Shown piece by piece: positions 2,976 to 26,395 of a stretch of 64,000 nt of DNA (position 1 is the stretch's first letter; each line of letters begins with the position of its first letter). The position numbers and the translations under genes were made by a program. This stretch comes from an uncultured Prevotellaceae bacterium (lineage in GTDB: Bacteria > Bacteroidota > Bacteroidia > Bacteroidales > Muribaculaceae): assembly GCA_900318205.1 (NCBI GenBank), contig ONJS01000021.1, positions 1-64,000 on the forward strand, given 5' to 3'. Below the pieces are notes generated by a model. That model searched no databases. It saw only the letters and a list, made by a program, of their open reading frames with translations, and was not told the DNA's origin.

Positions 2976-2999
2976 AAGCCTACTTCGGTAGGCTTTTTC
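2976..2999 (+). terminator. Intrinsic terminator of the ABC pair
   Basis: A perfect 8-bp stem AAGCCTAC/GTAGGCTT with a TTCG tetraloop, followed by T residues: a textbook rho-independent terminator. Confidence 0.9.
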
Positions 3000-3028
3000 G
3001 TGTCTTTTACCACATCAGCCAATCAAAG

Positions 3029-3057
3029 TAGCTTTGCGACGTAAAATCGCAAAGCTA
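3029..3057 (+). promoter_or_regulatory. Perfect 11-bp palindrome overlapping a -7 box
   Basis: Inverted arms at 3029-3039 and 3047-3057 are exact complements with a 7-bp spacer. The left arm contains TAGCTTTG (3029-3036), a match to the TAnnTTTG -7 box, and the ATG of the next gene is 8 bp past the right arm. As DNA it could be an operator; as RNA only the right arm would be transcribed. Confidence 0.6.
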
Positions 3058-3065
3058 TTTTGATT

Positions 3066-3467
3066 ATGATTGACATCCAACAACTGACCTCATTGATCTC
3101 CGCATTCCGCGTCGAGACCGAGAAAGAAAGCATCTCGCCCGAGACAGTCGGCTCCATCCTCCAGGCCATCGCAGACCTGCTGGCCACCGCCACCAGCGAG
3201 ACCGAGTACAACATCATCCGCTTCTGGAAGGAAACGCTCCAGCAGTACCGCTTCCTCTACGACATCCAGCAGCGCAACATCGATGACCACAGCAACGTCA
3301 TCCTGCAGCTCATGGCTCGCAGCATGGTCGACGGGGCGACCTCGTCACTCACGCTCGCCATCGGCCCGGCCACACGCACCCGTGCCGGCGTGCTCACCGC
3401 CGAGGACTACATCCGCATCCAGGGCATCGGCGAGACGAACTACGATTACAATGAGGACGTGTTATAA
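3066..3467 (+). CDS. Small protein with phage tail-fibre-like C-terminus
   Basis: A 133-residue protein that I do not recognise as a named family. It starts MIDIQQLTSLISAF; the upstream TTG at 3060 is less likely because the ATG sits just past the palindromic promoter. The first ~80 residues are predicted helical. The segment TRTRAGVLTAEDYIRIQGI near the C-terminus resembles the short AGLMSAADK-KLDGI motif common in phage tail fibres and related surface fibres. No signal peptide or membrane segment. It is GC-rich, unlike the AT-rich ABC genes beside it, and stands alone. It may be a remnant or module of a phage-derived fibre; function unknown. Confidence 0.6.
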   Translation: MIDIQQLTSLISAFRVETEKESISPETVGSILQAIADLLATATSETEYNIIRFWKETLQQYRFLYDIQQRNIDDHSNVILQLMARSMVDGATSSLTLAIGPATRTRAGVLTAEDYIRIQGIGETNYDYNEDVL

Positions 3468-10282: not shown

Positions 10283-12478
10283 TTGAATGTGAGACCATTA
10301 AAAGTTTGTATAGGAATTATATTGTTGTTTAGCCTGTTGGCTTCATGCTCGCAGGATGAGAAAAGATATCGAATCGGAGTATCGCAGTGCTCTGATGACA
10401 TCTGGCGTGATAAGCAGAACTCGGAATTGCAGATTGGCGCCTATTTCCACGATAACGTGGATTTGTGCTTTGCCGCGGCATACGATAGCGATGAGCGACA
10501 GATCCAGCAGATTGACAGCCTTGTCGAAACAGGGATAGACCTGCTGATTGTGGCTCCCAACCAGGTATCGACCATTTCGCCCGCCATCGACAGGGCCTAT
10601 GACAAGGGCATCCCGGTAATTGTGTTTGAACGCAAGACCAACACCAAGAAATATACGGCCTATATGGGTGCCGACAACTATGAGATGGGGCACCTGATGG
10701 GCGAGTATGTCGCCACACGGCTGCATGAACACGGCCGCATCATCGAGGTGATGGGCCTGAAAGGCTCCTCACCTGCCATCGAACGTCACAACGGTTTCAG
10801 GGAAGCCATTGCCCAGCACCCCGGCATCCAGGTGATTGCCACCTTGCAGGGCGACTGGACCGAACCGACAGCCTACAATAAGGTGAAGCAGTGGCTTGAC
10901 AAAAACAAGGGAGAGAAGATTGACCTGGTGTTCGGCATGAACGACCGCACGGCGATGGGTGCCCGCAAAGCCTTTGAGGAGGCAGGCGGTGCGCTGCCGC
11001 TGTTCTGCGGCATTGATGGCCTGCCGGGCGAGAACGGCGGCATCCGCCTGGTGCAGGATTCGCTACTGGATGCATCCTACATCTATCCCACTCATGGCGA
11101 CCAGCTGCTGCAGCTGGCGGTGGATATCCTGGAAGGGAAGCCTTATGAGAAGGAGACCAAACTCATGTCGGCGCTGGTTACCCAGGACAATGCCCGCGTG
11201 CTGCTGATGGAGAGCGAGGAAATCATGCGCCAGTCGCACAACCTGGAGCAACTGCATGAAAAAGCAAACAAATACCTGGATCAATTGGGCAACCAGCGCA
11301 TGCTCACGTTTGTTGCTCTGGCAGCAATGTTCCTGTTGCTGGCCCTGCTGGTCGGCATCTACATGTACTACTTGCAGCGTGCCCGCATCCAGGACGAACG
11401 AACCAAGATGGAGCGCGAGCAACTGGACTTCTACACCCAGGTGAGCCACGAGCTGCGCACGCCGTTAACACTCATCCAGGGTCCTCTGGACCAGTTGTTA
11501 AGGACCAACGACTTTCGCACCGCCAGCGACAATGCACGTGAACTCTTCACAATCGTTCGCCGCAATACTCATCACCTCACCGGTCTCGTCAACAAGATGC
11601 TGGATGCCCAAGTGGGCGGCACCATCACCGACGTCAATGCCCATGTAGAGACGCAAAATCTCGCGTCTCCCGAATCGGCTGGAAATGTCAAGCCCGACGA
11701 GGATGCGCCCACGGTGCTCATCGTCGATGACAATGCCGATATCCGCACCTATCTGCGGTCCATCCTCCAGGGCAAATACCGCGTGCTGGAGGCCGAGGAC
11801 GGCAAATCGGGACTGGATATGGCACGCGAGCATGTGCCTGACCTCATCGTGTCGGACGTGATGATGCCCGTGATGAACGGTCTGGAATTCTGCCAACAGG
11901 TGAAAAAGGACGGCATCTCCAGCCATATTCCCGTCATCCTGCTCACGGCAAGGGCACTTGAAAAACATCAGATCGAGGGTTATGAAAGCGGAGCCGACGC
12001 CTATATCACCAAACCCTTCTCCCCGGAACTGCTGCTGGCTCGTATCGACAACCTGCTGCAAAGCCGACATCAGCTCAAGGACCTGTGGACCATGAAACCA
12101 GCGGCCGAGACCGTTGCCGTCACATCAACTGCGGCCGCTGTAGCCGCCACGAACCCCATCGAGGACGCCTTCATTTCCCAATTCAAGAGTATAGTGGAGG
12201 AACGTCTGGCGGACAGCTACCTGAGTGTCGAAGATCTTGCGACAGCCATGGGGTTGAGCCGCGTGCAGCTCTACCGCAAGGTCAAGGCCTTGACAGGCAG
12301 TTCTCCAGTTGACCTGCTGCGCAAGGCAAGACTCGCCCAAGCCCAAAGGTTATTGCAAGAGTCAACGCTCTCGGTCAGCGAGATTGCCTATCAGGTGGGA
12401 TTTGCCTCCCCGTCCTACTTCACCAAGTGCTACAAAGACGAGTTCGGTACTGTGCCGGGTGAGGCGCGCAAGTCCTAA
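10283..12478 (+). CDS. Hybrid two-component regulator with sugar-binding sensor, lacking the HATPase domain
   Basis: A 731-residue hybrid regulator beginning at TTG (GTG at 10289 is the alternative; no ATG fits). N-terminal signal with a lipobox-like LLASC, then a type-1 periplasmic binding protein domain (about 27-320, ribose/fructose-binding class), a membrane helix (about 336-358), HisKA with SHELRTPL and H389 (about 383-446), a receiver domain (about 473-590, phosphoacceptor D525 in SDVMMP) and an AraC-type DNA-binding domain (about 635-731). In canonical hybrids a HATPase_c domain of about 110 residues separates HisKA from the receiver; here only ~27 linker residues do, and no N, G1 or G2 box is present. 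Being next to a fructan locus, it likely senses fructose, as reported for BT1754 of B. thetaiotaomicron. Confidence 0.88.
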   Translation: MNVRPLKVCIGIILLFSLLASCSQDEKRYRIGVSQCSDDIWRDKQNSELQIGAYFHDNVDLCFAAAYDSDERQIQQIDSLVETGIDLLIVAPNQVSTISPAIDRAYDKGIPVIVFERKTNTKKYTAYMGADNYEMGHLMGEYVATRLHEHGRIIEVMGLKGSSPAIERHNGFREAIAQHPGIQVIATLQGDWTEPTAYNKVKQWLDKNKGEKIDLVFGMNDRTAMGARKAFEEAGGALPLFCGIDGLPGENGGIRLVQDSLLDASYIYPTHGDQLLQLAVDILEGKPYEKETKLMSALVTQDNARVLLMESEEIMRQSHNLEQLHEKANKYLDQLGNQRMLTFVALAAMFLLLALLVGIYMYYLQRARIQDERTKMEREQLDFYTQVSHELRTPLTLIQGPLDQLLRTNDFRTASDNARELFTIVRRNTHHLTGLVNKMLDAQVGGTITDVNAHVETQNLASPESAGNVKPDEDAPTVLIVDDNADIRTYLRSILQGKYRVLEAEDGKSGLDMAREHVPDLIVSDVMMPVMNGLEFCQQVKKDGISSHIPVILLTARALEKHQIEGYESGADAYITKPFSPELLLARIDNLLQSRHQLKDLWTMKPAAETVAVTSTAAAVAATNPIEDAFISQFKSIVEERLADSYLSVEDLATAMGLSRVQLYRKVKALTGSSPVDLLRKARLAQAQRLLQESTLSVSEIAYQVGFASPSYFTKCYKDEFGTVPGEARKS

Positions 12479-12493
12479 TCCAGTTAATTTATA

Positions 12494-12516
12494 CCCTATA
12501 AATACAACTATTTACA
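12494..12516 (+). promoter_or_regulatory. Candidate operator, copy 1
   Basis: CTATAAATACAACTATTTACA is an imperfect inverted and direct repeat ending 8 bp before the -33 element of the leader promoter. The equivalent position of copy 2 has TGCAAAATGCAACTATTTGCA, giving the shared core RCAACTATTTRCA. It is a candidate binding site for the AraC domain of the adjacent hybrid regulator. Confidence 0.5.
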
Positions 12517-12524
12517 GAATACCC

Positions 12525-12555
12525 TTTGATAACTGAGGGAAAAACACTACATTTG
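12525..12555 (+). promoter_or_regulatory. Leader promoter P1 of operon 1
   Basis: TTTG (12525-12528) and TACATTTG (12548-12555) with a 19-bp spacer, a near-perfect promoter. Transcription would start near 12560, about 410 nt before susC. Confidence 0.75.
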
Positions 12556-12560
12556 CACAT

Positions 12561-12766
12561 TCTCCCATGTGGGAGAGGAAAGACATTGTGGGATTTTTTA
12601 TTGAGTTACTGACTCTTTTCGGACCAAACTGCGACCTTGGATTACTGGAATAGAGAGTTCAGGACACCACCATTTATAGGCATAAGAATGGTGTGGACCG
12701 ACGTTTCATCTATTCCAACGGTTGTCGCAGACCTGGTTCGAAAGTGAAACGACGCGAGTCCACACC
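12561..12766 (+). ncRNA. Structured leader or small RNA, copy 1
   Basis: A conserved RNA element shared with 22893-23101. Helices: 5' hairpin TCTCCC/GGGAGA (12561-12576); small hairpin GAGT/ACTC (12603-12615). Nested set 1 is A 12629-12635 with 12724-12730 (CTGCGAC/GTCGCAG), B 12647-12654 with 12709-12716 (GGAATAGA/TCTATTCC) and C 12668-12674 with 12687-12693. Nested set 2 is D 12690-12698 with 12758-12766 (GGTGTGGAC/GTCCACACC) and E 12702-12708 with 12745-12751. C and D overlap, so the full sets are mutually exclusive, or part of a pseudoknot. The downstream strand of D is followed by TTTT. It could be a riboswitch-like leader of susC or an independent small RNA. No known family was recognised. 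Confidence 0.65.
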
Positions 12767-12911
12767 TTTTGCTATTTCTACAGCACAAAGGTAGTGCATT
12801 GACACTGATTGTTGCTTGAAAAAATCGTTCTTTGGCTAAAAAAAATGATACATTGAAACATATTTACTAGTAGAAGAACGAAAACTGATAGTCCCCCATG
12901 TTCCAATAGGT

Positions 12912-12919
12912 TAACTTTG
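12912..12919 (+). promoter_or_regulatory. Second -7 box close to susC1
   Basis: TAACTTTG lies 49 bp before the susC1 ATG and is conserved at 23247-23254 before susC2. No good -33 element is present, as expected for an activated promoter. Upstream, an inverted pair CGTTC/GAACG brackets a conserved CATTGAAACATATTT stretch in both copies. Confidence 0.5.
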
Positions 12920-12968
12920 CAACCAATCAACATAAACTAATGTATTATTAACCAAAACCAACAGAACA

Positions 12969-15900
12969 ATGAACGTACTGAAAAGATTTCTACTCAGCTT
13001 CATGCTCATGTTGACGTGTACCCTAGTGTATGCGCAAACAGAAATCACAGGCACCGTCGTTGACGAGACAGGAGAAGGAGAGACCGTCATCGGCGCCACT
13101 GTGGTTGAGAAAGGTACCAGCAACGGTACAGTGACCGACTTTGACGGCAACTTCGTCATCAAGGTAAATCCTGGAACCATACTGGTGGTATCCTACATCG
13201 GTTATGAAAAGATGGAGGTTGCCGCCGAGAATGGTATGACGATTACCCTCAAGGACAACGCCGTCGAGCTCAAGGAGCTTGTGGTGACCGGTTATCAGGT
13301 ACAGCGCAAGGCTGACTTGACCGGTGCCGTGGCTGTGATGGACATGAAGGGTCCGATCAGCGACAGTGACCCCAACATGCTTAACTCGATGCAGGGTAAA
13401 CTGTCGGGTGTGGACATCGTGACCGATGCCGCTCCTGGTGGTGGCAGTTCCACCATCCGCGTGCGCGGTATGAGCACCGTCAACGCCTGTGACCCCTTGT
13501 ATGTCATCGATGGTGTCGCCACCAACGAGAACCTGAACTCCCTGAACTCGGCCGATATCGAGTCCATTCAGGTTTTGAAGGACGCCTCCTCGGCTTCAAT
13601 CTACGGTAGCCGTGCTGCCAACGGTGTCATCATCATCACCACCAAGAAGGGCAAGGACGGCCGCATGGCCATCAACGTCAACTACAATGCTGCGTTGCAG
13701 ACTGTGGTCAAGACGTTTGACGTGCTGAATGCCGCTCAATGGGGCCAAGCCTACTGGCAGGCCGCCAAGAACGACGGTATCGCCCCCTCGGCAGCCGCTG
13801 CCCTGTATGGCACCGGTGCAACGCCCCAACTGGTATCATCGGTCAATGGCATCAATACTGCCGACACCAACTGGCAGAAAGCCGTTTACAGCAACGCATG
13901 GACCCACAACATCACCGCCAGCATCAGTAATGGCAGCGAGAAGGGTTCCTACCTGTTCTCGGGCAGCTACATTAACCAGAACGGTCTGATGAACCGCACG
14001 TTCTACAAGCGCCTGAGCGGTCGTGTGAACTCTACCTACAACTTCAACCAGTACCTGCGTGTGGGTGAGAACCTGATGATTGCCAAGTGGGACAACCGTG
14101 GTGCCGACACCAATGGTGACCGTGGCATTCCCTACAGCGCTATGCGTCAGCATCCCGCCATTCCCATCTATTCGGCCGATGGCGTATTTGCCGATCCCGT
14201 TGCCATGTTGGGCAGCGATATCGACAACCCCGTGCAGACCCTTTACAATGCGCGCGATAACCAGAACTCCTCGTGGCGCATCTTCGGTAATGCCTATGTT
14301 GACATCATGCCCATCAAGGGCCTGACCTTGAAGAGCAACATCGGTATTGAGCACATCCAGTTCCTGAACAAGACGCTCACCCGCAATGTGCGTCCCAGCG
14401 ACATCTCGGCCAACCGTGCCGTGAGCCGCGGCTACGGCCAGGGCGACACCTGGACTTGGACCAACACCGCCAACTACCTGCTCGACATCAATGGTGTTCA
14501 CCACTTCACCTTCCTGGCAGGTACCGAGGCCATCAAGTATGTGTTTGAGGACGTGGCAGCCACCCGCAAGGATTATGCCTTTGAGGATGTGGATTACATG
14601 CAGATCGGTGCCGGTTCGGGCACGATGACCAACGGCGGTGGCAAGCAGGAGTGGGCATTGTTCTCGATCTTCGGCAAGATTGACTACAACTACGCCGACC
14701 GCTACCTGTTGTCAGCAACCCTGCGCCGCGACCAGACTTCGCGCCTGTCCAAAAAGAACAACTCGGGCATCTTCCCCGCCTTCTCGGCCGCTTGGCGTAT
14801 CTCAGAGGAGGCATTCTGGCCCAAGAACCACACCATCGACAACGTCAAGCTGCGTGCCGCATGGGGACAGAACGGTAACTCCGCTATTTCCAACAACTAT
14901 GCCGCCTATTCGACCTACGTCTATGACATGGGCAACGGTGCATACGACCTGAACGGTAACAACAGTGTAGTGAGTGGTATCAAGGTGCTCACCACTGGTA
15001 ATCCCGACCTCAAGTGGGAGACCACGACCCAGACCAACATCGGTATTGATGCCTACCTGTTCAACAACACGGTAAGCCTCTCGGCCGACTACTACTGGAA
15101 GGACACCAAGGACATGATCACCATTCCTCCCGTGCTGTCGGTAGCCGGTGAGAATGCTGCCAAGTTTGTCAACACTGGTGAGATGAAGAACCACGGTTTC
15201 GAGTTGAACCTGGGTTATCACTCGCCCTCTTACGGCGACTTCTCTTGGGAAGGCAATTACAACTTCTCGCTGTATCGCAACAAGCTGGTGAAGTATAATG
15301 ATAAGGTGAGCGTCATCGGTGGTGACTTCCGTCTCATCGAGGGCCAGCCCATGGGCGTTTACTACGGCTATGTGAGCGACGGCATCTTCCAGAATGCTGA
15401 TCAGGTGAGCAACCACGCCATCCAGGAGGGTAAGGGCATCGGCCGCCTCATTTACCGCGACATCAACGGCGACGGTTACGTGAATGACCAGGACCGCTGC
15501 ATCATCGGTGACCCCAATCCCGACTTTGCAATGGGTCTGACACTCGCAGTTTATTACAAGAACTGGTCGCTCTCGACCTTCTTCTCGGGCGAGTTTGGAT
15601 TTGACATTTATAATGGTACGCGCAAGCAGACCGAGTTCATGACCTATGGTAACCTGTACACCAACCGTGGTACTGGTGTCATGAATGCATGGACCCCCGA
15701 GAATACCGGTGCAAAGATTCCGGCTCTGACGACCATCGACGACAACAACGAGATGCGTATGTCCACCTACTTTGTAGAGGACGGTTCCTACTTCAAGTGC
15801 AAGTACATCAAGTTGGGTTATCGCTTCGACCAGTCCTGGCTGCAGACCCTTGGCCTGACTGCCATGAACATCTACGGCCAGGTTGAGAACGTCTTTACCG

Positions 15901-16019
15901 CTACCAAGTACAGCGGTCTTGACCCCGAGGTGCCCCTGGGTGTGTATGGTGCCCGCATCGACAACGGCCCCTATCCCCGTGCAAGAACATTCTCGTTGGG
16001 ACTGAACCTGTCATTCTAA
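12969..16019 (+). CDS. SusC-type TonB-dependent outer membrane transporter, fructan operon 1
   Basis: A 1016-residue outer membrane transporter. Signal peptide 1-22 (ends VYA), a CarboxypepD_reg-like domain (about 25-100), a conserved VVTGYQVQRKADLTGAV segment starting near 105, a plug domain with the hallmark YGSRAANGVIIITTKKG (about 210-230), and a 22-strand barrel ending in an aromatic residue (F1016). Its partner susD follows after 15 bp. It should import fructo-oligosaccharides captured by SusD, powered by TonB. Expression is probably controlled by the hybrid regulator at 10283 and by the leader RNA element upstream. The first 36 codons are almost identical to those before susC2. Confidence 0.95.
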   Translation: MNVLKRFLLSFMLMLTCTLVYAQTEITGTVVDETGEGETVIGATVVEKGTSNGTVTDFDGNFVIKVNPGTILVVSYIGYEKMEVAAENGMTITLKDNAVELKELVVTGYQVQRKADLTGAVAVMDMKGPISDSDPNMLNSMQGKLSGVDIVTDAAPGGGSSTIRVRGMSTVNACDPLYVIDGVATNENLNSLNSADIESIQVLKDASSASIYGSRAANGVIIITTKKGKDGRMAINVNYNAALQTVVKTFDVLNAAQWGQAYWQAAKNDGIAPSAAAALYGTGATPQLVSSVNGINTADTNWQKAVYSNAWTHNITASISNGSEKGSYLFSGSYINQNGLMNRTFYKRLSGRVNSTYNFNQYLRVGENLMIAKWDNRGADTNGDRGIPYSAMRQHPAIPIYSADGVFADPVAMLGSDIDNPVQTLYNARDNQNSSWRIFGNAYVDIMPIKGLTLKSNIGIEHIQFLNKTLTRNVRPSDISANRAVSRGYGQGDTWTWTNTANYLLDINGVHHFTFLAGTEAIKYVFEDVAATRKDYAFEDVDYMQIGAGSGTMTNGGGKQEWALFSIFGKIDYNYADRYLLSATLRRDQTSRLSKKNNSGIFPAFSAAWRISEEAFWPKNHTIDNVKLRAAWGQNGNSAISNNYAAYSTYVYDMGNGAYDLNGNNSVVSGIKVLTTGNPDLKWETTTQTNIGIDAYLFNNTVSLSADYYWKDTKDMITIPPVLSVAGENAAKFVNTGEMKNHGFELNLGYHSPSYGDFSWEGNYNFSLYRNKLVKYNDKVSVIGGDFRLIEGQPMGVYYGYVSDGIFQNADQVSNHAIQEGKGIGRLIYRDINGDGYVNDQDRCIIGDPNPDFAMGLTLAVYYKNWSLSTFFSGEFGFDIYNGTRKQTEFMTYGNLYTNRGTGVMNAWTPENTGAKIPALTTIDDNNEMRMSTYFVEDGSYFKCKYIKLGYRFDQSWLQTLGLTAMNIYGQVENVFTATKYSGLDPEVPLGVYGARIDNGPYPRARTFSLGLNLSF

Positions 16020-19759: not shown

Positions 19760-19768
19760 CATTAAGTG

Positions 19769-22138
19769 ATGAAACTGAGACAAATCCTGTTTACCGCATT
19801 GGTGTCTGCCCTGCCGGCAGGCATCAATGCCCAGCAGGTTGCAGCACACTATACCATGTCGCTGACCGACGGCGGTAAGATTGAGGAGACGGTGTCACAC
19901 AACCAGTACACCGTCACCTCACAGTTGCCCGCCTGCACAGTTCAGGGACTGAATGGTGATGCCTTGCGCTTTGATGGCTACTCCAACTATGTGAAGGCTG
20001 GCCTTCCCGTGGGCTCTTTCAGCACCGATGCCTTGACCATCAGCGTCGTGCTCGCAGCCGAGGCCTACCCGATGATGCAGGTGGATGTCGCCGAGACGAC
20101 ACCCACGTTTGCAACAGTGTTTGGTAACCTGGATGGCAAACAAGGCTTTGCTCTGGAATTGTCGTCTCAGGGTGACCTGCGCTTCCGCTTCGGCTCGTCC
20201 TATGCTGGCGGTTATCTTTTCTCCTTCAATGGTGATACCAAACTGCCCCGTGGCAAGTGGAGCGTGGTGACCGTCGTGCTTGACAAGGCTGGTAACGCTG
20301 CAACCATGTACCTCAACGGTACTGTCATCGGTACAGGCCGCATGAGCCGCGCTGGTGTCGTTCACAGCACTGCCGATTTCTATATCGGCAAGGATGCCAC
20401 CGATGTGAAGGCTGGCCCGTTCCTGATCAATACCTTTGTCGGTCTGATTGACGATATCGCCGTCTATAACGGTGTCATGACCGCCGACCAGGTGGCAGCA
20501 CTGGTGCCCAACAATCCCGCTTTGCCCGATTTCAATTATCCCGCATCGCGATATGCGTCAAGCCTGTGGCGTCCTCAGTTCCACGGTATGCCTTCGGGCG
20601 GCTGGACCAACGAGAGCCACGGCATGACCTATAGTGACGGCAAGTTCCATGTCTTCTTCCAGAAGAATGCCAATGGCCCTTACATGTCGCGTCTACACTG
20701 GGGACACATCACGAGTGAGAACCTGTACAGTTGGCGAGAGGAGCCCATTGCCATCGCCCCAGGCGAGAATTATGACATCAAGGGTTGCTGGAGCGGCTGT
20801 GTCTATGACAACAATGGCACTCCCAGCATCCTCTATACCGCCGTGGACAATGCCCGTGCAGTGATTGCCCAAGCCAATCCGGCAGATGCTACGCTAATCG
20901 ACTGGAACAAGCAGGGCATTATCGTCAACGGACGTCCCGCAGGATTGTCCGATGACTTCCGCGACCCGTACCATTTCACGGTGGATGGAAAGCAGTACGT
21001 CATCGTGGGTACCAGCAAGAACGGCGTGGGTGCCTGCACGTTGCACAAACTGGAAGGCGGCACCTGGACCAATGACGGTGCTATCTTCTTCCAGGGTGGC
21101 AATGCCAATCAGCACGGCACCTTCTGGGAGATGCCCAACGTGACCGATATGGGCGGTGGCAAGTGGCTGTTCACTTGCACTCCGCTGGGCATGGGCAGTG
21201 GTGTACGCACCCTGTGCTGGACCGGTTCCATCGGTGCCGACGGCAAGTTCATCCCCGATGGTAGTGGCATACAGTATCTTGAGATGGGAGGCATCAGCCG
21301 TGACGGTTACGGCTTGCTCTCACCCACCATCTACAAGAAGGACGGTAAGATCCTCATGCTGGGTATCGTGCCCGACAAACTGCCGACCAACGTGAACTAC
21401 AACATGGGTTGGGCGCACAACTACTCCCTGCCCCGCGAAATCAGCCTCGATGCGAACGGTTCACTGGTTCAGAAGCCTTATAGCGGCCTGACAGGTATGC
21501 GCACCAAGACTGCCATTACCCGCAACCTTACCCTCAACGGCGCTGAGTCGCTGGCTCCCGTCAGCGGCCGTCAGATTGAGTTGCTGGGTGAGTTCACGGT
21601 GACCGAAGGCAAGATGGGCTTCAATTTCCTGAAGTCGGGCTCGGGCAAGGTCTCCTTGACCTATGATGCTGCCAGCGGAAATCTTACCCTCGACATGACG
21701 GCTCTGACCAGGACCGCCAATGACGGTGGCGTTTACAATGGTGTCTATACTGCCGCCCTGCCCAAGCGCGTGGCTGCCGGAGAGACGTTGAAACTCCACG
21801 TTTATCTCGATGGTTCCATCGTTGACATCTTTGTGAACGACACCTGGGCTTACTCGGTGCGTCTGTTCCCCAACGATGCTACCCAAGTCGAGGCCGAGGC
21901 TTTTGCCACTGCTGCAACACCTGCCCGCATCAGTGCATGGGTGCTGGACCCTACAATGGTACCCACCCCCATCGTGGTGGGTGATGTGAATGGGGATGGC
22001 GAAGTGAATATCGCCGACGTTAACGCTGTGATTGACTTCATCCTGTCGGGCGGCTCTTCTGATTCTGCCGACGTGAATGGTGACGGCGAAGTGAACATCG
22101 CCGATGTGAATGCAGTGATTGACATTATCCTTAGTTAA
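19769..22138 (+). CDS. GH32-like secreted protein with LamG-like and dockerin-like domains, Glu at nucleophile position
   Basis: A 789-residue secreted protein starting at ATG 19769 (the frame extends one GTG codon upstream). Signal peptide 1-22 (ends INA), a LamG/concanavalin-like domain (about 30-235), a GH32 five-bladed propeller (about 265-560), a C-terminal GH32 beta-sandwich (about 565-725), and two dockerin-like repeats (about 732-789, both DVNGDGEVNIADVNAVID). The expected nucleophile motif WMNDPNG reads WTNESHG, so E282 replaces Asp. The transition-state Asp (FRDPYHF, D399) and the acid/base Glu (FWEMPN, E454) are kept. It may be an altered fructan hydrolase, a transferase or a binding protein. 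Confidence 0.85.
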   Translation: MKLRQILFTALVSALPAGINAQQVAAHYTMSLTDGGKIEETVSHNQYTVTSQLPACTVQGLNGDALRFDGYSNYVKAGLPVGSFSTDALTISVVLAAEAYPMMQVDVAETTPTFATVFGNLDGKQGFALELSSQGDLRFRFGSSYAGGYLFSFNGDTKLPRGKWSVVTVVLDKAGNAATMYLNGTVIGTGRMSRAGVVHSTADFYIGKDATDVKAGPFLINTFVGLIDDIAVYNGVMTADQVAALVPNNPALPDFNYPASRYASSLWRPQFHGMPSGGWTNESHGMTYSDGKFHVFFQKNANGPYMSRLHWGHITSENLYSWREEPIAIAPGENYDIKGCWSGCVYDNNGTPSILYTAVDNARAVIAQANPADATLIDWNKQGIIVNGRPAGLSDDFRDPYHFTVDGKQYVIVGTSKNGVGACTLHKLEGGTWTNDGAIFFQGGNANQHGTFWEMPNVTDMGGGKWLFTCTPLGMGSGVRTLCWTGSIGADGKFIPDGSGIQYLEMGGISRDGYGLLSPTIYKKDGKILMLGIVPDKLPTNVNYNMGWAHNYSLPREISLDANGSLVQKPYSGLTGMRTKTAITRNLTLNGAESLAPVSGRQIELLGEFTVTEGKMGFNFLKSGSGKVSLTYDAASGNLTLDMTALTRTANDGGVYNGVYTAALPKRVAAGETLKLHVYLDGSIVDIFVNDTWAYSVRLFPNDATQVEAEAFATAATPARISAWVLDPTMVPTPIVVGDVNGDGEVNIADVNAVIDFILSGGSSDSADVNGDGEVNIADVNAVIDIILS

Positions 22139-22828: not shown

Positions 22829-22851
22829 CTGCAAAATGCAACTATTTGCAA
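22829..22851 (+). promoter_or_regulatory. Candidate operator, copy 2
   Basis: TGCAAAATGCAACTATTTGCA: inverted 6-bp arms TGCAAA/TTTGCA and a direct repeat TGCAA. It ends 8 bp before the -33 region of the second leader promoter, the same spacing as copy 1 at 12494-12516. Confidence 0.5.
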
Positions 22852-22858
22852 AAATTCC

Positions 22859-22888
22859 TTGGTAACGGAAGGGAAAATAATAACTTTG
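22859..22888 (+). promoter_or_regulatory. Leader promoter P1 of operon 2
   Basis: TTG (22859-22861) and TAACTTTG (22881-22888) with a 19-bp spacer. It lies in the same place relative to the structured RNA as the copy 1 promoter. Confidence 0.7.
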
Positions 22889-22892
22889 CACA

Positions 22893-23101
22893 TCCTATCC
22901 TAATAAGGGAGGAAAGACATTGAGGGATTGTTTATGAGTTACTGATTCCTTTTGAACCAAACTGCGACCATTGATTAGAGGAATAGAGAAATCAGGGAAA
23001 CCGCCATTTCATCGGTATAAAATTGGTGTGGATCGACGTTTCATCTATTCTAAAGGTTGTCGCAGACCTGGTTTGAAAGTGAAATGATGCAAGTCCACAC
23101 C
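22893..23101 (+). ncRNA. Structured leader or small RNA, copy 2
   Basis: Second copy of the element at 12561-12766. The 5' hairpin has a different sequence but the same form (TCCT-a-TCCT with AGGGAGGA, 22893-22913). Helix A 22962-22968 with 23059-23065 is unchanged. Helix B 22980-22987 with 23044-23051 changes G-C to G-U. Helix D 23025-23033 with 23093-23101 changes C-G to U-G. Helix E 23037-23043 with 23080-23086 changes G-C to G-U. Helix C is weaker (CGCCA/TGGTG, 23002-23006 with 23024-23028). All of these changes keep pairing, which supports a functional RNA fold before susC2. Confidence 0.65.
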
Positions 23102-23246
23102 ATTTGCTGTTACTTGAGTAGATAGTTAGTGCATCAACCACGAGAAATACTTATAAAAATCGTTCATTGAGTAGTAGAATTGATGCATTGAAACATATTT
23201 GCAAGCGCAGGAACGAATACTTACAGCCCCTCATGTTTCAAAAAGT

Positions 23247-23254
23247 TAACTTTG
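23247..23254 (+). promoter_or_regulatory. Second -7 box close to susC2
   Basis: TAACTTTG, 50 bp before the original susC2 ATG at 23304, equivalent to 12912-12919 in operon 1. The sequence CCCCTCATGTTTCAAAAAG before it also matches copy 1. Confidence 0.5.
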
Positions 23255-23303
23255 CCCAATATTAACATAAACAAATGTATTATTAACCAAAACCAACAGA
23301 ACA

Positions 23304-23411
23304 ATGAACGAACTGAAAAGATTTCTACTCAGCTTCATGCTCATGTTGACGTGTACCCTAGTGTATGCGCAAACAGAAATCACAGGCACCGTCGTTGACG
23401 AGACAGGAGAA
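23304..23411 (+). other. Out-of-frame 5' end of susC2
   Basis: ATG 23304 and the next 35 codons encode the same signal peptide as susC1 (one base change, Val to Glu at codon 3). After 23411 a 22-bp block present in susC1 (13077-13098) is missing, shifting the frame. Reading on from ATG 23304 meets a TGA within about 15 codons. The signal peptide is therefore cut off from the SusC body. Confidence 0.85.
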
Positions 23412-23413
23412 CT

Positions 23414-26395
23414 GTGGTTGAGAAAGGTACCACCAATGGTACAGTGACTGATTTTGACGGCATCTTCACCCTCAAGGTGAATCCCGGGGCAACCCTCGTT
23501 TTCTCCTACGTGGGCTACTTGAACGTCGAGATGCCTGCCGCTAACGGCATGGTCGTGACGATGAAAGAAGACGCCCTCGCTCTGAACGAGATTGTCGTGA
23601 CTGGTTATACCACACAGCGCAAGGCCGACTTGACCGGTGCCGTGTCGGTTGTCAGCGTGACCGATCTGGTCAAGCAGAACGAGAACAACCCCATCAAGGC
23701 GATGCAGGGTCGCGTGCCGGGCATGAACATCTCGGCCGACGGTAACCCCTCGGGTGCTGCTACAGTCCGCATCCGTGGTACAGGTACCCTCAACAACAAC
23801 GACCCGTTGTACATCATCGATGGTGTTCCCACCAAGGCCGGTATGCACGAGCTTAACGGTAACGACATTGAGAGCATCCAGGTATTGAAGGATGCCGCTT
23901 CGGCGTCTATCTACGGTAGCCGCGCTGCCAACGGTGTTATCATCATCACCACCAAGGGCGGCAAGGACGGAAAAGTGAAGATTGACTTCGATGCCAGCCT
24001 GTCAGTACAGACCTATGCCCATAAGATGAAGGTGCTGAACGCCAAGGAGTTTGGCCAGACGATGTGGCAGGGTTATGTAAACGATGGTCTGAATCCCAAC
24101 TTGAATGGTCTGGGATACTACTATGACTGGAGTTACGATGCTAAGGGCGTTCCCGTGCTCAACTACATCACCATGAACAAGTATCTGGATCCTGCCGGTA
24201 TAACTCCCGCAGCCGATACCGACTGGTTCAAGGAAACCACCCGCACGGGCTTTGTTCAGCAGTATAATCTCTCGCTGAGCCAGGGCACCGAGAACGGAAC
24301 CTCATTCTTCTCACTGGGCTACTACAAGAACGACGGTATCATCAAGAAGTCTGACTTCCAGCGTTTCTCGGCCCGTATGAACTCGACCTACAAGTTGCTG
24401 AACGTCGGTGACCGCAAGATCGTGACCGTGGGTGAGCACTTCACGGTAAACCGCACCAATGAGCTTCAGGCTCCTGGCGGATTCCTGGAGAACGTGCTGC
24501 AGTTCAATCCCTCGCTGCCCGTTTACACGACCAAGGGCACTTATGCAGGTCCCGTGGGCGGTTATCCTGACCGTGAGAACCCCGTGGCTCGCCTTGAGCG
24601 CAATAGCGACAACCGCTACACCTATTGGCGTATGTTCGGTGATGCCTTCATCAACATCAACCCCATTGCTGATTTCAACATCAAGTCAACCTTCGGTCTT
24701 GACTATTCTCAGAAACAGCAGCGCATCTTCACCTATCCTATTACCGAGGGTACAGTGGCCAATTCTACCAATGCCGTTGAGCCTAAGCAGGAACACTGGA
24801 CCAAGTGGATGTGGAACGCCATCGCTACCTACAACCTGGAGCGCGGTGCACATCGCGGTGATATCATGATCGGTACCGAGCTTAACCGTGAGGATGACTC
24901 ATGGCTCAGCGCCAAGGCTTATGACTTTGCAGTCTTGAATCCCGATTACATGTGGCCCAACGCAGCCGTCGGTGAGTCTGAGGCCTATGGCTCTGGTGAG
25001 GGTTACACACTTGTATCCTTCTTCGGTAAACTGAATTATACCTATGCTGACCGCTACTTGGCAAGCTTGACCATGCGCTACGACGGTTCAAGCCGCTTCG
25101 GTCGCAACAACCGCTACGGTACATTCCCCTCGGTCAGCCTCGGTTGGCGCATCAGTGAGGAGAACTTTATGAAGAGTCTGGACTGGCTCGACAACCTCAA
25201 GTTGCGTGCATCATGGGGTCAGACCGGTAATCAGGAGATTTCCAACATTGCCCGCTACACCATCTTTGAGAGCAACTATGGTGAGGCTGGTTTCGGTGGC
25301 CAGAGCTACGGTACCAGTTATGACATTGCCGGTACCAATGGCGGCCAGACGCTCCCCAGCGGTTTCAAGCGCAACCAGTTGGGTAACGATAACCTCAAGT
25401 GGGAAACCACGACACAGACCAACGTTGGTTTTGACTTCGGTATGCTGCGCAACGCACTCTACGGCTCGTTTGAGTGGTATTACAAGAAGACCACCGACAT
25501 TCTGGTTTACATGCCCGGTATCGGTGTGATGGGTGAGGGTAGCAGCCAGTGGATCAATGCTGGTGAGATGACCAATAAGGGTATCGAGCTGAACGTGGGC
25601 TACCGCGGCAGCGTGGGCGATTTCCAGTATGATATCGCCGGTAACATCGGTACTTATCGCAACAAGGTGACCAAACTTCCCGAGACCCTGGCAGCAGCCG
25701 GAACCTTCGGCGGTAACGGTGTCGAGAGCGTCGTTGGTCATCCCATGGGTGCCCAGGTGGGTTATGTATATGACGGCATCTTCAAGAGCCAGGACGAGAT
25801 TGACAATCATGCCGCACAAAATGGTGCCGGTCTGGGTCGCATCCGCTGGAAAGACTTGAACGAGGATGGTGTCATCAACGAGAGTGACCAGAAGTGGATC
25901 TACTCACCCGTGCCCGATTTCACTTGGGGTCTGAACATTTACCTTGAATACAAGAACTTTGACTTCACCATGTTCTGGCAGGGCGTACAGGGCGTTGACG
26001 TGATCAGCGACCTGAAGCGTGAGACCGACTTGTGGGCAGGTCTGAATATTACTAACCTGAACAAGGGCCGTCGCTTGCTCGACGCATGGACTCCCAATAA
26101 TCCCAGCTCCAACATTCCTGCTGTCAGCACGATGGACAACAACAACGAGAAGCGCGTCAGCAGCTACTTTGTTGAGAATGGTTCCTTCGCCAAGATGCGT
26201 AACATCCAATTGGGTTACAACTTCGGCAGTAGCATCTGTGACAAGTTGCACATCGCACGACTGCGCATGTATGTGTCAGCCCAGAATCTGCTGACCATCA
26301 AGAGCAAGTCGTTTACCGGTGTGGATCCCGAAAATCCCAACTTCGGTTATCCTATCCCCCTCAATGTTACCTACGGTCTTAATGTTTCATTCTAA
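23414..26395 (+). CDS. SusC-type TonB-dependent transporter, operon 2, 5' frameshift
   Basis: The open frame (GTG at 23414, 993 residues) covers almost all of a SusC transporter: CarboxypepD_reg-like remainder, the VVTGYTTQRKADLTGAV segment, plug with YGSRAANGVIIITTKGG, and a barrel ending in Phe. It has no signal peptide of its own and an in-frame TGA at 23396-23398 blocks upstream extension; the true signal peptide lies at 23304 in another frame. Adding back 22 bp would restore a protein of about 1036 residues. As sequenced it should not reach the outer membrane. Either the gene is inactivated, or this is a sequence or assembly error at a join between near-identical paralogues. In gene order it corresponds to the levan SusC BT1763. 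Confidence 0.88.
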   Translation: MVEKGTTNGTVTDFDGIFTLKVNPGATLVFSYVGYLNVEMPAANGMVVTMKEDALALNEIVVTGYTTQRKADLTGAVSVVSVTDLVKQNENNPIKAMQGRVPGMNISADGNPSGAATVRIRGTGTLNNNDPLYIIDGVPTKAGMHELNGNDIESIQVLKDAASASIYGSRAANGVIIITTKGGKDGKVKIDFDASLSVQTYAHKMKVLNAKEFGQTMWQGYVNDGLNPNLNGLGYYYDWSYDAKGVPVLNYITMNKYLDPAGITPAADTDWFKETTRTGFVQQYNLSLSQGTENGTSFFSLGYYKNDGIIKKSDFQRFSARMNSTYKLLNVGDRKIVTVGEHFTVNRTNELQAPGGFLENVLQFNPSLPVYTTKGTYAGPVGGYPDRENPVARLERNSDNRYTYWRMFGDAFININPIADFNIKSTFGLDYSQKQQRIFTYPITEGTVANSTNAVEPKQEHWTKWMWNAIATYNLERGAHRGDIMIGTELNREDDSWLSAKAYDFAVLNPDYMWPNAAVGESEAYGSGEGYTLVSFFGKLNYTYADRYLASLTMRYDGSSRFGRNNRYGTFPSVSLGWRISEENFMKSLDWLDNLKLRASWGQTGNQEISNIARYTIFESNYGEAGFGGQSYGTSYDIAGTNGGQTLPSGFKRNQLGNDNLKWETTTQTNVGFDFGMLRNALYGSFEWYYKKTTDILVYMPGIGVMGEGSSQWINAGEMTNKGIELNVGYRGSVGDFQYDIAGNIGTYRNKVTKLPETLAAAGTFGGNGVESVVGHPMGAQVGYVYDGIFKSQDEIDNHAAQNGAGLGRIRWKDLNEDGVINESDQKWIYSPVPDFTWGLNIYLEYKNFDFTMFWQGVQGVDVISDLKRETDLWAGLNITNLNKGRRLLDAWTPNNPSSNIPAVSTMDNNNEKRVSSYFVENGSFAKMRNIQLGYNFGSSICDKLHIARLRMYVSAQNLLTIKSKSFTGVDPENPNFGYPIPLNVTYGLNVSF

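Follow-up and report, generated by a model that had tools for sequence, protein, structure and literature searches.

The window, that is the whole stretch of 64,000 nt that was analysed, carries a cluster made up of a hybrid two-component regulator, susC and susD genes, a DUF4960 protein and a GH32 enzyme, a gene content consistent with fructan use. Two copies of a structured RNA were located in this cluster, the first between the regulator and susC1 and the second ahead of susC2 (Table 1). The two regions (12494-12969 and 22829-23304) aligned from end to end, with 82% identity over 594 nt by blastn and 85% identity in the RNA portion. This alignment, the TTG-N19 promoters with their second -7 boxes and five helices (A to E) had been reported in the preliminary description; all of them were found in place, the promoters and boxes in both copies. 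P1, the terminator-like T run after helices D and E, and the antisense-oriented -7 box were absent from that account.

Table 1. Positions of the genes and of the observed and predicted RNA features in the window.
Feature	Position	Strand	Remarks
Hybrid two-component regulator	10283..12478	+	Peripla_BP_4, HisKA, Response_reg, HTH_18
RNA promoter, copy 1	12526..12555	+	TTG-N19-TACATTTG; -7 box 12548-12555
Switch RNA, copy 1	12560..12775	+	about 215 nt; putative ends, placed from promoter and T run
5' hairpin, copy 1	12560..12577	+	predicted fold; copy 2 has a predicted hairpin of other sequence
P1, rod helix	12617-12626 with 12734-12743	+	family covariation significant in 7 of 9 pairs; unfitted alignment, 6 of 9
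P2 (helix A)	12629-12635 with 12724-12730	+	covariation significant in 6 of 7 pairs; unfitted alignment, 1 of 7
P3 (helix B)	12647-12654 with 12709-12716	+	covariation significant in 6 of 7 pairs; unfitted alignment, 5 of 7
Inner rod hairpin (helix C)	12668-12674 with 12687-12693	+	91.5% of cells paired, 16 sequences
H2, terminator-like hairpin (helices D and E)	12690-12698 with 12758-12766; 12702-12708 with 12745-12751	+	followed by TTTT 12767-12770
Antisense-oriented -7 box	12786..12793	-	TACCTTTG on the minus strand; copy 1 only
Inverted repeat CGTTC..GAACG, interval between RNA and susC1	12826-12830 with 12876-12880	.	candidate regulator site
susC1 -7 box	12912..12919	+	TAACTTTG
susC1	12969..16019	+	TonB-dependent receptor
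RNA promoter, copy 2	22859..22888	+	TTG-N19-TAACTTTG; -7 box 22881-22888
Switch RNA, copy 2	22893..23110	+	putative ends; P2 22962-22968 with 23059-23065, P3 22980-22987 with 23044-23051, H2 23025-23033 with 23093-23101
susC2 -7 box	23247..23254	+	TAACTTTG

Because the hairpin formed by helices D and E has a T run directly behind it, it looks like an intrinsic terminator. The T run is weak in copy 2, where only ATTT (23102-23105) is present. Hairpin C and the terminator arm have positions 12690-12693 in common. The predicted fold of copy 1 was better than those of all 200 dinucleotide shuffles (z -5.2); the fold of copy 2 alone was not exceptional by the same measure (z -1.25, with 22 of 200 shuffles as good). 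P2 showed no variation among the 16 nearest sequences.

Relatives were sought at increasing distance. A DNA search of 101 genomes of the same genus gave matches in 17, some of them only short pieces, and further members were obtained from the loci around susC relatives in named records, the nearest being that of uncultured Prevotellaceae RUG412, with a susC 98% identical. The covariance model R1, built on 16 sequences, matched 60 of 397 genomes of the taxonomic family, including a divergent form of about 210 nt. A second model (R2) was built from 48 divergent relatives, with none of the sequences of the window's group. In the window's own genome R2 found both copies and nothing else, copy 1 at 12599-12776 (E 3.0e-8; R1 12602-12774) and copy 2 at 22932-23107 (E 7.2e-9), a recovery that is not fully independent since the R2 rows had originally been found via R1 and the alignment A7 was fitted to the rod described below.

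Using R2 at E <= 0.001, matches were obtained in 189 of 397 genomes of the taxonomic family (26 of 30 genera, and 111 of 222 good-quality genomes), and at E <= 0.01 in 53 of 393 genomes of the order, these genome counts being lower bounds as stricter filters were applied in searches over 40 genomes. In a sample of 247 genomes from the class, four matched: three within the order, among them the window's own genome, and one beyond it, weakly and partially. Several copies per genome occur in many genomes, and one copy lies on a record labelled Phocaeicola massiliensis plasmid. Both copies in the window and their helices are real and demonstrably homologous to this RNA family, which is far larger than the two copies seen in the preliminary description. 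No credible match was found in Rfam 15 (4227 families) at the gathering cutoff for the window, for a set of 19 loci or for a set of 20 loci, the sole match in the latter set being an unrelated tRNA in L173. In E-value mode, 521 nt of copy 1 gave nothing up to E 5, and 381 nt of the family locus L121 gave just two snoRNA models, far under the cutoff.

Two incompatible folds were evaluated on the family alignments. The first is a long rod consisting of O, P0, P1, P2, P3, Q and R, and the alternative consists of two hairpins, the second one terminator-like. A5 (48 rows) was obtained from A4 (72 rows) by leaving out 24 (the window, 14 window relatives and 8 aberrant loci). A7 was derived from 95 chosen sources, which gave 105 matches and, once 9 reverse-strand duplicates had been dropped, 96 rows. 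In the rod, 94.8% of the cells were paired and 22 of 48 pairs had changes on both sides; its covariation score was 0.352 against 0.148 after shuffling, and none of 500 shuffles attained these three values. The number of further pair types in the rod showed no excess over shuffles (68 vs 66.0; 144 of 500 as high). For the two hairpins, 96.9% of the cells were paired, 13 of 42 pairs were changed on both sides, and the covariation score was 0.171 against 0.138 (0 of 500 as high). Both folds exceeded all their slid versions in cells paired and in covariation score, so the complementarity is conserved for the two of them.

Individual pairs were assessed with a tree-aware covariation test over all column pairs, R-scape style but home-made, with 12 and 20 simulated alignments. 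On the 96 rows, 22 significant pairs were found, namely seven in P1, six in P2, six in P3, one in H2 and two outside the named pairs, one of which adjoins P2; the best E value among the P1, P2 and P3 pairs was 4e-13. The 48-row alignment, which was not fitted to structure, gave 19 significant pairs: six in P1, five in P3, one in P2, none in H2 and seven outside, the last clustering around P2. On this comparative evidence P1 to P3 are regarded as established. No individually significant pair was detected in O, P0, Q, R, H1 or H2i in either test, and the two-hairpin state therefore rests on conserved complementarity. Hairpin C of the window is the counterpart of the R/Q pairing of the family and is likewise conserved, with no individually significant pair.

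An apical stem, A1 (TCAAAC/GTTTGA), was dropped from the final model, being paired in just 32-44 of 48 per pair. The preliminary description had also proposed a pseudoknot; one compact pseudoknot holding all the helices is judged sterically unlikely from the length of the linkers, 0-5 nt across about 20 bp.

The element rather probably belongs to a family of leader RNAs in Bacteroidales that adopt two states, with a terminator/antiterminator exchange. Four strands, H1a, H1b, H2a and H2b, would have two alternative pairings. In the OFF state two hairpins, H1a:H1b and H2a:H2b, would be formed, H2 with its T run acting as an intrinsic terminator. In the ON state the rod would have H1a:H2b on the outside, P1-P2-P3 in the middle and H1b:H2a on the inside, so that the terminator arms would be occupied and the rod would serve as antiterminator. 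During transcription, H1 would appear first; P3, P2 and P1 would then invade it ahead of the synthesis of the last terminator arm, and the outcome of folding would set the amount of transcription reaching the next gene. In the fructan cluster, read-through may contribute a basal level of susC expression; alternatively, the short RNA may have a function of its own. Termination itself, the order of folding, regulation and any trigger are what we infer from these features.

The placement of the RNA was examined in 89 elements outside the window's group. L139 and L167, which are one place, were counted once (the 90-row counts hold both), and L146, L149 and L154, from the same genus, are included here and absent from A5 and A7. 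The downstream gene was co-directional in 83 of 87 elements and the upstream gene likewise in 65 of 85. An ATG start codon lay 40-70 nt past the match in 51 of 83, such distances being approximate because any open reading frame that began with ATG and encoded at least 80 aa was taken as a gene. Within 120 nt of the element, a TAnnTTTG box was present on the upstream side in 83 of 89 and on the downstream side in 6 of 89; on the reverse strand of the upstream side it was found in 12 of 90. The position behind a promoter box and ahead of co-directional genes is evident from the sequences, and beyond the window's group the RNA has the appearance of a 5' leader.

In these elements, the inner part of the arm H2b pairs with the stretch just past the T run, often over 6-9 bp and in co-varying versions such as AATCCTC/GAGGATT and GTTCCC/GGGAAC. 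The own partner was better than the swapped one in 0.774 of 2370 cases (79 elements; relatedness uncorrected), and four control segments gave values of 0.477-0.527. Transcription must have read through for this helix to be able to form. The stretch from terminator to ATG pairs better with the terminator arm than as a local hairpin. Such a local hairpin, which appeared plain by eye in the majority class, was rejected as shuffles gave a mean z of -0.27 over 54 elements.

The window's group differs from these leader-type elements in several respects. Of its 17 members, 16 have a TAnnTTTG box ahead of the RNA, and all 13 susC-adjacent ones carry another -7 box in sense orientation, 134-157 nt past the RNA. 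In the remaining four (L084, L048, L039 and L056) the RNA precedes the gene of a hybrid two-component regulator, with its domains confirmed, and not susC; the distance to the gene is 85-104 nt and a second TAnnTTTG box occurs in 0 of 4. An antisense -7 box within 60 nt past the RNA was present in 14 of 17 members vs 7 of 90 others, copy 2 being among those lacking it. Two of 17 members passed the z test for the read-through helix, vs 47 of 89 leader-type elements, judged over the same span in both. The window's group looks derived, with the RNA and terminator kept and the coupling to the next gene weakened. In the fructan cluster, given a separate promoter box for susC and the general lack of the read-through helix, most transcripts probably end near 12775.

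This weakened coupling is compatible with a small RNA and equally with basal read-through into susC, and the crude duplex test given below does not discriminate between them. The bistable leader of the preliminary description accordingly holds for the family, with both helix sets conserved, covariation in the rod and a leader position outside the window's group; for the two window copies, where susC has a promoter box of its own, a leader and a small RNA have both to be considered. In the latter case, the members of the window's group would be free RNAs of ~215 nt acting in trans on susC, regulator and other mRNAs, in the manner of the FopS sRNAs, which repress susC mRNAs (PMC11697453). Their own promoter box and terminator-like end, the separate susC box and the scarcity of the read-through helix all agree with this. 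Nevertheless, a crude target-duplex test revealed no unusual complementarity of the copies to the start regions of susC1, susC2, HTCS and susD1 (z -0.05 to 1.9 against mononucleotide shuffles, accessibility ignored), and the four regulator-adjacent relatives, with the RNA 85-104 nt before the gene and no second box, speak against it. We regard the small RNA as rather unlikely.

In place of a two-state leader, the RNA could be a constitutive structure with no regulated switching, either a fixed terminator serving as insulation or a stable rod that shields the 5' end of the mRNA. The rod was the predicted minimum in 94 of 96 rows, with a mean energy of -80.8 vs -65.5 kcal/mol for the nested hairpins without kissing; since it is much stabler, a rod that never switches is possible, and H1 and H2i had no individually significant pairs. 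When partners were swapped across classes, however, the own partner was better in fractions of 0.960, 0.916, 0.851 and 0.824 for the four pairings (0.916 being the value for H2, over 1440 cross-class swaps), compared with 0.496 in a control that does not pair, relatedness being uncorrected in these values. The specificity of H1a:H1b and H2a:H2b for their own partners would be superfluous in a fixed rod, and a run of four or more T behind H2 in 46 of 48 A5 rows also argues against it. We thus hold a constitutive structure to be improbable. The outer strands switch class in concert (GGTGT, GCGT and GACGT types). Folding of successive prefixes of L121 gave H1 first and the rod afterwards; an H1-like hairpin also came first in copy 1, and no H1 hairpin was obtained in copy 2.

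The genes behind the RNA are diverse. In 82 downstream proteins scanned, 63 Pfam families were found, of which 25 are listed; the commonest matches among those listed were LRR_5 (BspA-type LRR, 11 of 82) and TerB (5 of 82). The RNA is therefore not fructan-specific, and the control of fructan transport, which had been suggested initially, finds no support as a general role, given the unrelated downstream genes and the four relatives with a regulator gene in place of susC. A metabolite riboswitch for sugar uptake, responding for example to fructose or fructose phosphate, would be in line with the conserved segments around P2 and with the GH32 enzyme in the cluster shared by both copies, but the downstream genes do not belong to one sugar pathway and a fructose sensor would be unsuited to such genes; with a different ligand still possible, we consider a riboswitch very improbable.

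The strand that folds was judged from mismatched cells. G.U cells outnumbered A.C cells on the + strand by 219:10 in the two hairpins and by 120:31 in the rod without P2; P2 itself had no G.U and seven A.C cells. This excess suggests that the + strand RNA, and not the DNA, is what folds. A palindromic mobile element acting at the DNA level (MITE, REP or attC-like) and landing before genes by chance would account for the near-palindrome, for nine elements that match R2 weakly on the reverse strand too and for the multiple copies in many genomes, one on a plasmid-labelled record, but it is highly improbable in view of the G.U excess outside P2, the one-sided promoter box, the spacing of 40-70 nt to the ATG in 51 of 83 and the lack of any match for one query among 50,697 phage records.

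Leaders with a terminator and an antiterminator are known from transcription attenuators and from the expression platforms of riboswitches. The family RNA resembles these in that an antiterminator and a terminator-like hairpin exclude each other in what looks like a 5' leader. Two marks of an attenuator were found: the terminator-like hairpin with its T run (reduced to ATTT in copy 2), and a conserved antiterminator sharing its strands, for which O, Q and R are backed by swaps and shuffles and not by per-pair significance. Unlike attenuators, the RNA exchanges four strands in two complete pairings, has a further helix with sequence past the terminator, precedes genes of many kinds, and comes without a known ligand, uORF or protein. 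Judging from these signs, it may work like an attenuator leader.

Some Bacteroidales RNAs offer partial parallels. The FopS and GibS sRNAs of Bacteroides thetaiotaomicron, as presented in PMC11697453, have a single-stranded 5' stretch and a terminator and act in trans. The RNA of the window is similarly multicopy, found in Bacteroidales, provided with a terminator-like end and tied to susC; unlike them, it is predicted to form a long rod or two hairpins and not a single-stranded seed with one hairpin. The DonS family comprises cis-antisense RNAs of 78-128 nt divergent to susC (PMC7366714). Like these, the present RNA lies in a PUL, next to the 5' region of susC, and an antisense -7 box follows it in the window's group; unlike them, it is sense and about 215 nt long, the antisense side being represented by a -7 box. 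Among the 3161 candidate structured RNAs from HMP2, some of the uncharacterised palindromic, terminator-like ones of Bacteroidetes lie near TonB or TPR genes, and those named in section 8 of PMC8040213 measure 80-132 nt. The comparison covers the descriptions in that section, and overlap with one of the 3161 candidates is possible. No described equivalent of the RNA was recognised in the open-access literature, supplements aside, and an unlabelled earlier candidate may exist.

A broader reading of the two-state leader, which we offer tentatively and hold to be somewhat doubtful as a whole, is that of a general-purpose RNA latch of Bacteroidales. The loops may kiss through P2 and the strands would then exchange like a migrating junction. 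In this way a co-transcriptional decision on expression could be made for scattered genes, several of which encode surface proteins, probably on the cue of a single cellular signal or RNA-binding factor common to them. Once transcription has read through, and not before, the extra helix would form and fix the RNA in the ON state. The fructan cluster would have taken the RNA over and linked it to the PUL, where copy 1 now faces an antisense promoter box.

Bacteroidales are major degraders of polysaccharides in the gut and rumen, and to our knowledge few cis-regulatory RNAs are known in them. If the proposed reading is true, a structured leader in roughly one of every two genomes sampled from the taxonomic family would represent a regulatory input new to this group and, in the fructan cluster, possibly a layer of RNA control that lies between the regulator and the two susC genes. 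The model together with the covarying helices makes the two-state idea directly testable.

Downstream of the RNA, the surroundings of the start codon are almost the same in both copies (143 of 145 nt, 12929-13073). The inverted repeat CGTTC..GAACG was also observed in copy 2, at 23161-23165 and 23211-23215.

The 5' ends of the two susC genes of the window (12929-13073 and 23264-23408) were found to be identical at 143 of 145 nt, against 85% identity between the two copies of the switch RNA that precede them. This difference suggests that the start of susC was homogenised by recent gene conversion. In the region 23304-23420, where susC2 starts, it encodes the same signal peptide as susC1. Past codon 36 its frame diverges from that of susC1 and then runs into a stop, and the long open reading frame opens only at 23414. 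An assembly error at the near-identical repeat is a possible cause of this frame break, because in the near relative L020 a different indel shifts the frame of the second copy there too.

Two further features adjoin the RNA and the susC genes. The -7 box (TAnnTTTG) on the minus strand could serve as a putative promoter of an antisense transcript across the RNA. At L084, a relative in which the RNA lies ahead of a regulator gene, a stretch similar to the inverted repeat (CGTTCA..TGATACAT) overlaps the start of that gene.

Features near the RNA and the susC genes
Feature	Position	Strand	Remarks
-7 box	12786-12793	-	directly behind the RNA; in 14 of the 17 members of the window's group
Inverted repeat CGTTC..GAACG, 50-bp offset	12826-12880 and 23161-23215		ahead of both susC genes

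A third sequence class was represented by three relatives of the same genus (L146, L149 and L154, about 2990-3190), in which small genes begin 57-59 nt downstream of the element. The position of P3, one of the helices of the rod fold, seems shifted in them. The model alignments were made without these three loci.

The GH32 protein (19766-22138) displayed a dockerin type I match at its C-terminus (E 8.1e-9), which is, to our knowledge, unexpected in such a cluster.
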